Below are positions 1,837 to 4,587 of a stretch of DNA of 47,518 bases, piece after piece; within the stretch, counting starts at the first letter, position 1, and every line of letters begins with the position of its first letter. The translations under genes were made by a program, and so were the position numbers. The DNA is from an uncultured Lachnospiraceae bacterium. Its GTDB lineage: Bacteria; Bacillota; Clostridia; Lachnospirales; Lachnospiraceae. The DNA is taken from positions 1-47,518 of the forward strand of contig CANQRU010000028.1 in NCBI GenBank assembly GCA_947626395.1, given 5' to 3'. Under the pieces are notes generated by a model. The model worked only from the letters and a program-made list of their open reading frames with translations, did no database searches and had not been told where the DNA came from.

Positions 1837-1866
1837 TTTACAAAGAGCGTCAGCGGATGATATACT
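1837..1866 (+). promoter_or_regulatory. Promoter for the ABC-F leader transcript
   Basis: TTTACA at 1837-1842 and TATACT at 1861-1866 are separated by 18 bases, in a locally AT-rich stretch. Transcription would begin near 1873, giving a leader of about 400 bases before the ABC-F start at 2273. Confidence 0.55.
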
Positions 1867-1984
1867 GAAAAAGACGATTCCGGCGCGGATGTGCGGTCGT
1901 TTGTTGTGGTACGGATACAGCGTGTTTCGGCCGGATCTGTCGCAAAATAAAACAGAAAGAGCACGTACAGTGTAAGGTGAGGAA

Positions 1985-1999
1985 ATGATCAGCAGATAG
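1985..1999 (+). CDS. Putative regulatory leader peptide MISR
   Basis: ATG ATC AGC AGA TAG encodes a four-residue peptide. It is preceded by AAGGTGAGGA, a near-ideal ribosome binding site at 1974-1983 that has no other reading frame to serve. The stop codon lies 3 bases before the first helix of a structured RNA and 274 bases before the ABC-F start. Very short upstream ORFs are known to sense ribosome-targeting antibiotics ahead of antibiotic-resistance ABC-F genes in Firmicutes (for example the Listeria lmo0919 leader). The assignment here rests on position and binding site only; such a short ORF can occur by chance. Confidence 0.4.
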   Translation: MISR

Positions 2000-2001
2000 T
2001 T

Positions 2002-2112
2002 TAATTTAGGTGCAGCACATTGTTTGCAAGACCTGTTCGGACAGGCCTTCGCCGCGTGGGGATCCGGCGGATGAGTTCCGGGGACGCACGTGGGACGTGT
2101 ACGCTTAAATTA
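2002..2112 (+). ncRNA. Predicted four-helix structured leader RNA upstream of ABC-F
   Basis: An 11-pair closing helix joins 2002-2012 to 2102-2112 (7 A-U pairs, then G-C and G-U pairs). Inside it are three hairpins: 2028-2049 (CCTGT, TCGG loop, ACAGG, extended by AAG/CTT across a mismatch), 2050-2069 (CGCCG/CGGCG), and 2086-2100 (CACGT, GGG loop, ACGTG). Together they form a plausible four-way junction. I do not recognise it as a known riboswitch family: T-box, cobalamin, guanidine and cyclic-di-GMP signatures are absent. Its position directly after the MISR ORF suggests attenuation, but no covariation evidence is available here. Confidence 0.45.
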
Positions 2113-2129
2113 GATAATCGCAGAGATCG

Positions 2130-2272
2130 TTTCCTCCTATAGTATGCAGGGAAGGGCGCCGGCGGCGCGCTTTCGGCATGATTTCTATGCGTGATGGAAT
2201 ATAGGGTCTCTTTAGCGGGTCTGTTTTGCGTATGCGGAGCGGGCCCGTTCCGGTATAAGGAAGGAGGAGACC
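2130..2272 (+). promoter_or_regulatory. Two alternative anti-Shine-Dalgarno elements before ABC-F
   Basis: The ABC-F ribosome binding site AAGGAGGAGA lies at 2261-2270. It can pair with TTTCCTCCT at 2130-2138 (9 pairs including one G-U). It can instead pair with GGTCTCTTT at 2205-2213 (9 pairs including two G-U, reaching to 2272). The second pairing encloses a further stem, 2215-2221 with 2242-2248. The two pairings exclude each other and both would block translation start. A small GC hairpin (GCGCC, GGC loop, GGCGC) sits at 2156-2168. This is sequence-visible complementarity; the switching role is inference. Confidence 0.45.
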
Positions 2273-4003
2273 ATGATACAGATAAACGAACTCACCGTCA
2301 CGCACAGGAAAGACCTGCGCGTGATACTGGAAAATTTCAATCTGGTACTGAACGACGGCGATAAAGCGGTGATCGTCGGCGAGGAGGGGAACGGCAAATC
2401 CACTCTGATGAAATGGATTTATGATCCGGCGCTTACGGAGGCATATGCGGAGACCGAAGGGGAGCGGATCCTTGGCGGAGAACGGACCGGCTATCTTCCT
2501 CAGGAGCTTCCCGCCGCGGACCAGGGAAAGACGCTGTATGATTATTTTGCGGAAGAGGAATGTTTCTGGAGCCAGACGCCTAAGGATCTGGCGGGTCTGG
2601 CTGCCCGATTCGGCGTGGAGAAGGATTTCTTTTACCGTGGACAGAGGATGGACAGTCTTTCCGGCGGGGAGAAGGTGAAGGCGCAGCTGATGCGGCTTCT
2701 GATGCGGGAGCCGACGGTGCTGCTTTTGGATGAGCCTTCCAATGATATCGATATCGCGACGCTTGAGCTTCTGGAGGAGCTGATAAACGGCTGGAAAAAG
2801 ATCGTACTATATATTTCCCATGATGAGACGCTGATCGAGAATACGGCGAATATGGTGATCCATCTGGAGCAGATCCGGCGGAAGTCGAAGTGTCGGTATA
2901 CCGTTGCGAAAATGCCTTACCGGGAGTATGTGCGGGAGCGCCTCCAGCGATTCGAGAAGCAGGAGCAGATGGCGTTTAATGACCGCAGGGAGAAGCGGCT
3001 GCGGGATGAGAAATACAGGCGGGTCTATCAGAGCGTCGAGCATGCCCAGGCGACGGTTTCGAGGCAGAGTCCGGGCGAAGCCAAGAACCTGAAGGATAAG
3101 ATGCATACAGTCAAAGCCATGGGAAAGCGGTTCGCGCGGCAGGACGAGGAAATGACGGAGATGCCCGAGCAGGAGGAGGCCATTTTCTTTAAACTCAGCG
3201 GGCAGGAAGCATGCATCCCGGCCGGGAAGACGGTGCTGGAATTTGAACTGGACGAGCTGCGGACGCCGGGGAGAGACGCGGGGACTCAAGGCGCGGGGAT
3301 GCCGAAAGAAAATGCGGAATCGGGAGGCGCGGGAGCACTGGCAGGGAAGACGGAAACGGAAGGAGCAAGGCTTCCTGTGGAAAATGCAGAAGCGGAAGGT
3401 GTGGGAGTTACAGTAGGAAACGCGGAATCGGAAAGCACGGAAGTTTCAGCGGAACCACGCGTCCTGGCGAGGAATATTTTTCTCAGGATTCGCGGCTCGG
3501 AGAAGATCTGCATCATCGGCGCGAATGGGGCCGGTAAGACCACGCTGCTTCGGCAGATCGCGGACAGCCTTTTGAAACGGACCGACCTGCGGGCCGAATA
3601 CATGCCGCAGAATTACGAGGATCTCCTGGATCTGTCAGTGATACCGGTGGAATATCTGGACCGATCCGGCGATAAGGTGGAACGGACGAGGATCCGGACA
3701 TATCTTGGCTCGCTGCGGTTTACGGAGGATGAGATGGCGCGCCCGATCCGGGAGCTGTCCGGCGGCCAGAAGGCGAAGGTGCTTCTTCTGAAAATGAGCC
3801 TGTCGGATGCGAATGTCCTGATCCTGGACGAGCCGACGAGGAATTTTTCGCCGCTTTCGGGTCCGGTGATCCGCAGAATGATCCGGGAATTTCCCGGCGC
3901 AGTGTTAAGCATTTCCCACGACAGGAAATACATTGACGAGGTCTGCGATACGGTTTACCGGCTTACGCCGGAGGGACTGGCAGTGCTCAGGACAGATAAC
4001 TGA
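2273..4003 (+). CDS. ABC-F ATPase, probable ribosomal protection (antibiotic resistance) protein
   Basis: A 576-residue soluble protein with two ABC domains and no membrane segment. Domain 1 has Walker A GEEGNGKST (36-44), signature LSGGE (129-133) and Walker B ending LLLDEPSND. Domain 2 has Walker A GANGAGKTT, signature LSGGQ and the Walker B form LDEPTRNFSPLSGP, a variant common in Lsa/Vga-like clostridial ABC-F proteins. The charged helical linker around residues 225-290 corresponds to the part that reaches the peptidyl-transferase centre in resistance ABC-Fs. The family binds the ribosomal E site and displaces drugs such as lincosamides, streptogramins A and pleuromutilins; the drug range here cannot be read. 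The start has an excellent RBS. An unusual 12-residue repeat sits just before domain 2. A housekeeping translation role is the alternative. Confidence 0.88.
   Translation: MIQINELTVTHRKDLRVILENFNLVLNDGDKAVIVGEEGNGKSTLMKWIYDPALTEAYAETEGERILGGERTGYLPQELPAADQGKTLYDYFAEEECFWSQTPKDLAGLAARFGVEKDFFYRGQRMDSLSGGEKVKAQLMRLLMREPTVLLLDEPSNDIDIATLELLEELINGWKKIVLYISHDETLIENTANMVIHLEQIRRKSKCRYTVAKMPYREYVRERLQRFEKQEQMAFNDRREKRLRDEKYRRVYQSVEHAQATVSRQSPGEAKNLKDKMHTVKAMGKRFARQDEEMTEMPEQEEAIFFKLSGQEACIPAGKTVLEFELDELRTPGRDAGTQGAGMPKENAESGGAGALAGKTETEGARLPVENAEAEGVGVTVGNAESESTEVSAEPRVLARNIFLRIRGSEKICIIGANGAGKTTLLRQIADSLLKRTDLRAEYMPQNYEDLLDLSVIPVEYLDRSGDKVERTRIRTYLGSLRFTEDEMARPIRELSGGQKAKVLLLKMSLSDANVLILDEPTRNFSPLSGPVIRRMIREFPGAVLSISHDRKYIDEVCDTVYRLTPEGLAVLRTDN
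3290..3433 (+). repeat. 36-base in-frame tandem repeat inside the ABC-F gene
   Basis: Four degenerate units of 12 residues (340-351, 352-363, 364-375, 376-387) follow the pattern G-A/V-G/R-x(4)-N/K-A/T-E-x-E/G, for example GARLPVENAEAE and GVGVTVGNAESE. A partial fifth unit follows. The segment is acidic, Gly/Ala/Glu-rich and probably disordered. It sits at the start of the second ABC domain, where ABC-F relatives normally have only a short turn. Confidence 0.75.
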
Positions 4004-4101
4004 CGGGCGGACGGAAAGATGGAAACAGCCGGAAATGGTGAAACATTTGAAAGAGAGACAATTGGAAGATTGTAAGGGCGATGAAATGGGGCGGAAGGCA
4101 T

Positions 4102-4587
4102 ATGGAATTTCTGGATACGGGATTTCTGCAGGATGATGAGATTGTGCTCAGGCTGGAGAAGACAGCGGCTGGCGATCTGGCGAAAGGCTGGCTTCCGGCG
4201 TATTATTTTACCATCTGCGACAGAAAGGGGCGGGAACTGGGCGTCTGCGATCTGCGGGTCGGCCACAATCGGAACGTGTATTACGGCGGAAATATCGGCT
4301 ACCGGGTCTATGAGCTATACCGGGGCCATCATTATGCGGGAAAGGCGTGCCGCCTGCTGTTTGAACTGGCCGGAAGGCATGGGATGGAATATCTGATCAT
4401 TACCTGCAATCCGGGTAATCTGGCGTCGAGAAAAACCTGCGAGTACGCGGGACTGCGCCTCATGGAGATTGTGGAATTGCCCAGGGATAATGATATGCGT
4501 ATCCAGTCCGGAGAGACGGAAAAATGTATTTACCGGATCGAGTTCGCAGATGGATGCGGGAACAGGAAAACAGCGGAACCGAGATGA
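4102..4587 (+). CDS. GNAT family N-acetyltransferase
   Basis: A 161-residue single-domain protein with the GNAT core. GGNIGYRVYELYRGHHYAGK matches the acetyl-CoA-binding strand, loop and helix (motif A), and CNPGNLASRKTCEYAG matches the later helix seen in RimJ/RimL-like acetyltransferases. It would transfer an acetyl group to an amine; the substrate is unknown. The start at 4102 (MEFLDTGF) fits relatives better than the in-frame ATG at 4081, though neither has a strong ribosome binding site (GGAAGG lies 3 bases upstream of 4102). It follows the ABC-F gene by about 100 bases and ends 9 bases before the SRAP start, so it may be co-transcribed with one or both. Confidence 0.85.
   Translation: MEFLDTGFLQDDEIVLRLEKTAAGDLAKGWLPAYYFTICDRKGRELGVCDLRVGHNRNVYYGGNIGYRVYELYRGHHYAGKACRLLFELAGRHGMEYLIITCNPGNLASRKTCEYAGLRLMEIVELPRDNDMRIQSGETEKCIYRIEFADGCGNRKTAEPR

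Follow-up and report, generated by a model that had tools for sequence, protein, structure and literature searches.

A covarying leader RNA with a four-codon open reading frame ahead of an ABC-F gene in Lachnospiraceae, probably a ribosome-mediated attenuator

The window, i.e., the whole stretch of 47,518 nucleotides analysed here (contig CANQRU010000028.1 of an uncultured Lachnospiraceae bacterium), contains near its 5' end a gene for an ABC-F ATPase, preceded by a structured leader on the same strand. The best NCBIfam model for the protein, ribo_prot_ABC_F (NF000355), scores 321.3 bits, under its cut-off of 380, and 25 distinct sequences of solved structures match at E 1e-20 or better, including ABCF1, ribosomal-protection ABC-Fs, PoxtA, and Lmo0919. 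The protein presumably confers antibiotic resistance. A low-complexity insert rich in Gly, Ala, and Glu (3260–3475) is situated directly before the second ABC domain. The leader and the gene comprise the following features.

1837..1866, + strand, promoter-like site TTTACA-18-TATACT with TG before the -10 element (consensus scan, 10/12 matches; weak evidence)
1961..1973, + strand, P0 hairpin (GCAC / GTGT), directly 5' of the mini-ORF Shine-Dalgarno sequence (covarying helix)
1974..1982, + strand, Shine-Dalgarno sequence AAGGTGAGG of the mini-ORF (sequence; conserved across relatives)
1985..1999, + strand, mini-ORF M-I-S-R-stop (sequence; conserved across leaders)
1995..2012, + strand, strand A, the 5' arm of P1 (anti-antiterminator), which takes in the end of the mini-ORF (fold, covariation)
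2015..2100, + strand, apical part: helix 2015–2018/2097–2100 and two hairpins with cores 2032–2045 and 2052–2093 (fold)
2096..2104, + strand, antiterminator 5' strand, partner 2228–2236 (covariation, cognate-pair test, masked folding)
2102..2119, + strand, strand B, the 3' arm of P1, whose 5' end doubles as antiterminator strand (fold, covariation)
2205..2272, + strand, helix of 2205–2213 with 2264–2272 (9 pairs), hiding part of the ABC-F Shine-Dalgarno sequence AAGGAGG (2261–2267) (fold; cognate-pair test in relatives)
2215..2248, + strand, terminator-type hairpin of 15 pairs with loop GTAT and a degenerate U tract, TTCC (fold, covariation)
2228..2236, + strand, antiterminator 3' strand, within the apical part and loop of the terminator-type hairpin (covariation, cognate-pair test, masked folding)
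2273..4003, + strand, ABC-F ATPase of 576 amino acids (two ABC_tran stretches)

The consensus scan of 1600–2350 on both strands yields two promoter-like sites, compared with 1.1 expected in shuffles. The Shine-Dalgarno sequence AAGGTGAGG and the mini-ORF ATG ATC AGC AGA TAG of the initial annotation are both read directly from the letters, and its 11-pair helix (2002–2012 with 2102–2112) reappears on folding as a part of the longer P1. P1 spans 18 positions, 1995–2012 with 2102–2119, of which 17 pair by reading of the letters, the mismatch being A1998/A2116. The antiterminator (2096–2104/2228–2236) has strands in common with both P1 and the terminator-type hairpin. In the minimum-energy fold of 1974–2112, the 11-pair helix is followed by the 4-pair helix 2015–2018/2097–2100 and then by two hairpins, the core 2032–2045 sitting in a longer arm, so that the three hairpins of a four-way junction described previously become a three-way junction. 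Most aligned relatives, as read by eye, enclose a short stretch with a single hairpin; the four-way junction was rejected as a conserved feature. Folded alone, 1974–2112 reaches a z of -1.46, and 19 of 200 shuffles are equally good; hence, it would not stand out by itself. The longer leader 1950–2290 reaches -6.16, with none of 100 shuffles equally good. The idea that a junction is used rather than a simple terminator hairpin finds no support: the junction lacks conservation, and a terminator-type hairpin and an antiterminator are found downstream.

A scan with the ABC-F protein of the window returns 126 relatives, of which the best 80 were kept, mostly labelled Lachnospiraceae and mostly from metagenome bins; within the genus, five of 26 genomes, one of them the window's own, contain such relatives at E up to 1e-100. 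A regular expression for a short ORF followed by TTTRATTTARGT matches 51 of 84 upstream regions and finds no match in 33, three of which (L014, L035, and L038) hold fewer than 150 bases upstream. The covariance model R1, built from a MAFFT alignment of 36 regex-matched leaders including that of the window, detects the leader on the gene strand at E < 1e-5 in 65 of 84 sources (the window, L009–L013, and L015–L092, with L014 left out; L010/L018 and L012/L067 are duplicate places). Removal of near-identical leaders reduces 94 to 75. In whole genomes, the leader is present in 51 of 397 in the family sample at E up to 0.01 (46 at 0.001 or better), in 45 of 392 in the order sample at E up to 0.001 (seven of the 45 in other families), and, with model R2, in 14 of 391 in the class sample (five of the 14 in other families, including a strong one at 4.5e-28); the window's genome is part of all three samples, which overlap and whose strict filters lose weak matches.

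Rfam 15 at the gathering score gives no match to the leader, a tRNA being the sole match in the window, and at E up to 5 a single chance-level match appears in 1600–2350, on the other strand. The literature search, which covered main texts of mostly open-access papers, returned no report of the present leader. The uORF4u paper (PMC10219788) contains neither 'Clostrid' nor 'Lachnospir' in its main text; 'ABC-F', 'Lachnospir', 'Roseburia', and 'Blautia' are missing from that of a 2024 RNA-discovery paper (PMC11109978). A spread by plasmids or phages was rejected at the level of DNA similarity: no match at E 0.001 came from blastn searches of plasmids with the window leader or of phages and plasmids with the L021 leader.

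The mini-ORF is kept in the relatives. A putative mini-ORF with a Shine-Dalgarno sequence is read in all 75 distinct leaders, with four codons in 70, three in four, and two in one; the script favoured ATG and frames of 3–4 codons near a Shine-Dalgarno sequence, the covariance model was itself built from such leaders, which makes this conservation partly one of construction, and related leaders are not independent. The last sense codon encodes Arg in 69 of the 75 (AGA 57, CGA 11, and AGG 1), the seventieth four-codon mini-ORF ending in Lys, while codons 2 and 3 are variable. The GA of the AGA or CGA codon lies inside P1 and the first base lies outside it. This base is A, C, or T, the last of which generates TGA and ends the ORF, and is never G, which would encode Gly. 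Since the avoidance of G occurs at a position outside P1, it hints that the terminal Arg codon may be under selection. With Arg almost invariant at codon 4 and codons 2 and 3 variable, the position of the ribosome stall becomes a testable question.

The covariation that the initial annotation proposed to seek in homologous leaders is present in the helices; neither of the two computational outcomes named as refuting it, absent covariation and a non-conserved mini-ORF, was observed. Neither the shuffle tests here nor the permutation tests below take account of kinship among leaders. In the MAFFT alignment of 36 leaders, the structure scored comprises 31 pairs, namely P0, P1 with its inner helix, and an apical hairpin, and 83.7% of the cells are paired, compared with 79.6% in shuffles and 25–44% when the structure is slid by one to three columns. 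The 46 double-change cells exceed the 16.8 of the shuffles (0/500 as high), but slides of -1 to -3 give 36–41 and slides of +1 to +3 give 15–21; this measure alone is weak in the 36-leader alignment because the negative slides nearly match it. In the alignment of all 75 leaders, which is fitted to the covariance model and hence leans towards it, 85.7% of the cells are paired against 76.2% in shuffles, with 223 double-change cells against 68.7 shuffled and 35–78 slid, and 20 pairs showing a double change against 16.5 (9/500 shuffles as high). P0 changes on both sides in all four of its pairs, with 81.3% of cells paired in the model-fitted alignment and 68.5% in the MAFFT alignment.

The terminator hairpin in a MAFFT alignment of 37 leaders is paired in 91.5% of cells against 88.7% shuffled, with 25 double-change cells against 10.6 (0/500); on further pair types, 77/500 shuffles are as high. 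In the same alignment, the antiterminator core is paired in 96.5% of cells against 95.2% shuffled and contains six double-change cells against 0.7 (0/500) and four pairs with double changes (1/500 as high). However, the antiterminator slid by +2 also yields six double-change cells, with five such pairs instead of four, at 75.2% paired and with a covariation score of 0.159 compared with 0.200 in the true register; its register therefore rests mainly on pairing and the covariation score. The helix evidence of the relatives puts the leader structure beyond chance. A conserved mini-ORF connected with a covarying helix, placed before ABC-F genes in the geometry expected of a ribosome-stalling sensor, is likewise supported.

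The partnership between strand B and the terminator was assessed by hybridising B in silico with the 24 bases around the loop of the leader's own or another leader's terminator hairpin in 72 leaders; L039, L071, and L113, with unrecognised terminators, were left out here and in the masked folding. A finder blind to B picks the terminator hairpin in 69 of 75 leaders and chooses another hairpin in six, the window among them; the terminators of the window, L037, L051, and L069 were placed by conserved sequence. Cognate duplexes have a mean of -15.4 kcal/mol, compared with -13.0 kcal/mol after permutation (lowest of 5000: -13.9). Permuted within sequence class, the mean is -14.0 kcal/mol, and 0/5000 permutations are as low as the cognate value. 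The cognate duplex is better than the median non-cognate one in 59/72 leaders overall, in 62/72 between classes, and in 50/72 within class, where L116 was entered as GCG and actually belongs to CGG. The two sequence classes have GCGTAT and CGG loops, and A, B, and the terminator differ jointly between them. The change from GCG to CGG, the largest such co-change, traces to a single event in the 51-protein tree of window-type ABC-Fs and so counts once there; both classes are also present among Lsa-type genes, and smaller changes of both strands are seen in the single leaders L019, L036, and L074.

The helix that hides the ABC-F Shine-Dalgarno sequence also prefers its own partners. In 45 leaders, a set without misplaced hairpins and without two rows lacking a start codon, own partners reach -9.1 kcal/mol against -7.9 kcal/mol permuted, with 2/5000 permutations as low and 1/5000 within class, although not every leader shows this preference. 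In the window, it amounts to -14.3 kcal/mol as a duplex.

The effect of a ribosome was predicted by masked folding with a 30-base footprint and a transcript cut before the 3' arm of the terminator is complete, an equilibrium calculation that leaves out transcription speed. The mean of the expected antiterminator pairs over 72 leaders is 0.19 in the free RNA, 9.0 with the footprint at the start codon, and 13.4 with the footprint at codon 4, and at least six pairs are expected in 0/72, 48/72 (start codon in the P site), and 70/72 leaders, respectively. The window changes from 0.0 expected pairs to 16.1 in both stalled states. Of the 72 leaders, control masks switch 13 when placed 5' of the mini-ORF, one when over the apical region, and six when between the terminator and B. 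With codon 4 masked, 54/72 leaders still form at least six pairs with another leader's terminator piece and 27/72 with a shuffled one; thus, part of the predicted switch is the mere release of B. In this model, the switch is specific to the position of the ribosome and less so to the exact partner. The suggestion that a stalled ribosome would cover the 5' arm of the helix holds at codon 4, where nearly all of the arm would be covered, but fails at the start codon, where a toeprint of +16, as in PMC9226507, implies that 7 of the 18 positions are covered and 11 pairs are left free. At the start codon, the stall site of drugs that block early peptide bonds, 24/72 leaders do not switch by the same measure of at least six pairs.

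Several features of the ABC-F attenuator kind are present. An anti-antiterminator helix involving the uORF is indicated by the covariation of P1, and the antiterminator shares strands with P1 and the terminator, against which the +2 slide and the foreign-piece controls weigh. Dar et al. 2016 is reportedly a Term-seq study cited beside ABC-F attenuators. The vmlR leader of Bacillus subtilis, with a MIN mini-ORF, is described as regulated by ribosome-mediated attenuation (Takada et al. 2022, PMC9226507); as far as that description extends, it likewise combines a tiny mini-ORF in an anti-antiterminator stem-loop, an antiterminator, an intrinsic terminator, and a stem hiding the ABC-F Shine-Dalgarno sequence. 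The TTNTTT pause motif described there (PMC9226507) resembles the TTTATTT-like runs seen by eye before the terminator in many present leaders. By description, the present RNA differs from vmlR in its four codons, which usually end in Arg, and in the covarying P0 hairpin before the Shine-Dalgarno sequence. In Clostridioides difficile and other Clostridia, the cplR leader carries, in the account of Obana et al. 2023 (PMC10201436), an MR[I/M] mini-ORF in a 5' hairpin, and its terminator hairpin also hides the Shine-Dalgarno sequence, giving combined attenuation of transcription and translation. In contrast, the mini-ORF of the window is MISR, and M-x-x-R is found in 69/75 of the present leaders. 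The lsaA leader, per a passage of the same paper (PMC10201436), has the four-codon mini-ORF MAGN before an Lsa-type ABC-F gene; the present RNA also precedes Lsa-type genes and is set apart from lsaA by the peptide. Likened by description are also vgaL/lmo0919, vgaA, msrD, and lmrC, named as ribosome-mediated attenuators of ABC-F genes in the portions consulted of PMC12421871 (2025) and PMC10201436.

Clear homology to the CplR leaders is not detected: R2 matches 0/15 CplR-like loci at E below 0.001, these loci being the best 15 of 19 found and all under the NCBIfam CplR cut-off. Two of them (L174 3196–3307, - strand, and L177 3343–3454, - strand), which come from other Clostridia and carry the mini-ORFs MRIG and MRID ahead of the CplR-like genes, give weak matches of 18.5 and 16.5 bits in the right place and on the right strand, which makes a distant kinship with the CplR leaders possible. 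The initial annotation saw a leader of a kind it did not recognise, whereas the layout matches published accounts of the vmlR and cplR leaders. The principle of the mechanism is already familiar from other bacteria, and the RNA family appears uncatalogued; a leader that works like those of vmlR and cplR would represent an uncatalogued RNA family of known mechanism.

Taken together, the leader is probably (about 0.85) a ribosome-mediated attenuator of the ABC-F gene, in which a drug-stalled ribosome on the mini-ORF opens the switch. The helices, the shared strands, the mini-ORF, and the association with the gene, all supported computationally, would act as follows. Without drug, ribosomes would translate the four-codon mini-ORF and leave; strand A would pair with strand B, the terminator-type hairpin would form, and the adjoining helix would hide the ABC-F ribosome-binding site. 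A drug blocking early peptide bonds, most likely a lincosamide, a pleuromutilin, or a streptogramin A, would hold the ribosome on the mini-ORF and thereby presumably induce the gene: the stalled ribosome would cover A, and the freed B would pair with the apical part of the terminator hairpin, so that the terminator could not form. Once the antiterminator is formed, 2205–2213 lies inside its loop, and pairing with 2264–2272 would be a pseudoknot; by this topology, the ribosome-binding site is expected to open, as the hiding helix would be disfavoured, and the ABC-F protein would be made and protect the ribosomes. The balance between transcriptional and translational control may vary; given the degenerate U tract, hiding of the ribosome-binding site may matter more in the window, where the sequence points to the translational side of control over the transcriptional one. 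Against the attenuator reading stand the poor U tract of the window, a terminator scan of 1600–2350 that found no terminator, and the ABC-F score under the NCBIfam cut-off. In the relatives, about 62/69 hairpins have at least four T in the next six bases. If this reading is true, an uncatalogued covarying RNA family lies ahead of probable ribosome-protection genes in a major gut bacterial family, and resistance there, being inducible, would be easily missed by drug-free tests.

Among the alternatives, decay of the window copy as a terminator, leaving the ABC-F gene constitutive or mainly translationally controlled, is rather unlikely. It draws on the tail of the hairpin: the TTCC of the window recurs in its closest relative L009, and the tails of L017 and L021 are also poor. 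However, P1, the antiterminator, and the Shine-Dalgarno-hiding helix, at the -14.3 kcal/mol given above, are all intact in the window. A sensor of amino-acid shortage, in which a lack of charged tRNA-Arg or general starvation slows decoding of codon 4 as in classical amino-acid attenuators, would account for the terminal Arg in 69/75 leaders and for the codon-4 footprint switching 70/72 leaders in silico against 48/72 at the start codon. It is nevertheless quite improbable, as one Arg codon in four makes a weak sensor, 5/75 mini-ORFs stop short of codon 4, and the genes identified downstream comprise chiefly ABC-F ATPases, plus individual transporters and others, with no amino-acid gene among them.

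A ligand-binding riboswitch or protein-binding leader, with the closed P1 and the apical hairpins binding drug or protein and the mini-ORF being incidental, has the general riboswitch layout of a structured element ahead of a terminator-type hairpin. Against it, the apical region is the least conserved in sequence and size, a poor fit to a binding pocket, while the conserved parts are the Shine-Dalgarno sequence, the mini-ORF, and the switching strands, and the leader strand has no Rfam match; such a leader is very improbable indeed.

Returning to the attenuator reading, the RNA precedes genes of three ABC-F subfamilies. Among 30 family-scan loci including the window, 19 lie ahead of window-type and nine ahead of Lsa-type ABC-F genes; at L107 an ABC-F-like gene follows with an ambiguous frame, and at L113 nothing follows within the 835 bases to the contig end. 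NCBIfam scores two of the Lsa-type genes, as cut proteins, at 526 and 532 bits (cut-off 750); the rest were judged by eye. In 20 further places, picked as second copies or as weak or outlying matches, the RNA precedes seven window-type and six Lsa-type ABC-F genes (L145 judged from its first codons only), two Vga/Msr-like ABC-F genes, two MFS transporters, one GNAT, one DUF1062, and one locus (L141) without ABC-F. Of the Vga/Msr-like genes under the same RNA, L137 1540–2994 (- strand) scores 455.1 bits to ribo_prot_ABC_F, over the cut-off, and L139 470–1939 (+ strand) is assigned by likeness.

At L138, the RNA (3155–3290, - strand; E 2.0e-7) precedes an MFS transporter gene (PF07690; 1872–3029, - strand). 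Its mini-ORF, MRR, starts with GTG, and by eye its terminator is complementary to B; the placement of this transporter under the present RNA is fairly well supported. Because one RNA stands ahead of different gene families, the genes behind it are candidate resistance genes, and the L138 transporter is a candidate inducible efflux gene. Two genomes carry three matches each, the third matches being those ahead of the MFS genes. It is a tentative, on balance doubtful, extension that one mobile or repeatedly recruited attenuator RNA serves as a general drug-sensing module of gut Lachnospiraceae for unrelated resistance functions (three ABC-F subfamilies, MFS transporters, and perhaps GNAT), in up to three copies per genome, and that a selected terminal Arg would mark sensing by a stall at codon 4 or the stop codon, not at initiation.

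Some further places are leads only. At L148, a weak model match (150–280, + strand) with an MTI mini-ORF lies ahead of a GNAT acetyltransferase gene (395–889, + strand), and a perfect 9-base complement, GTGTTGGAA / TTCCAACAC, is seen by eye between the B strand and the terminator. The weak match at L149 precedes a DUF1062 gene, with no B/terminator complement spotted by eye, and that at L140 precedes an MFS gene, without a short mini-ORF or an obvious terminator. At L024, the leader (1758–1893, + strand) and the ABC-F gene (2867–4405, + strand) are separated by approximately 1 kb with no clear gene between. At L141, a strong leader match (155–288, + strand) with an intact-looking terminator is followed by an inverted-repeat stretch and lacks a downstream ABC-F gene, which suggests loss or separation of the gene.
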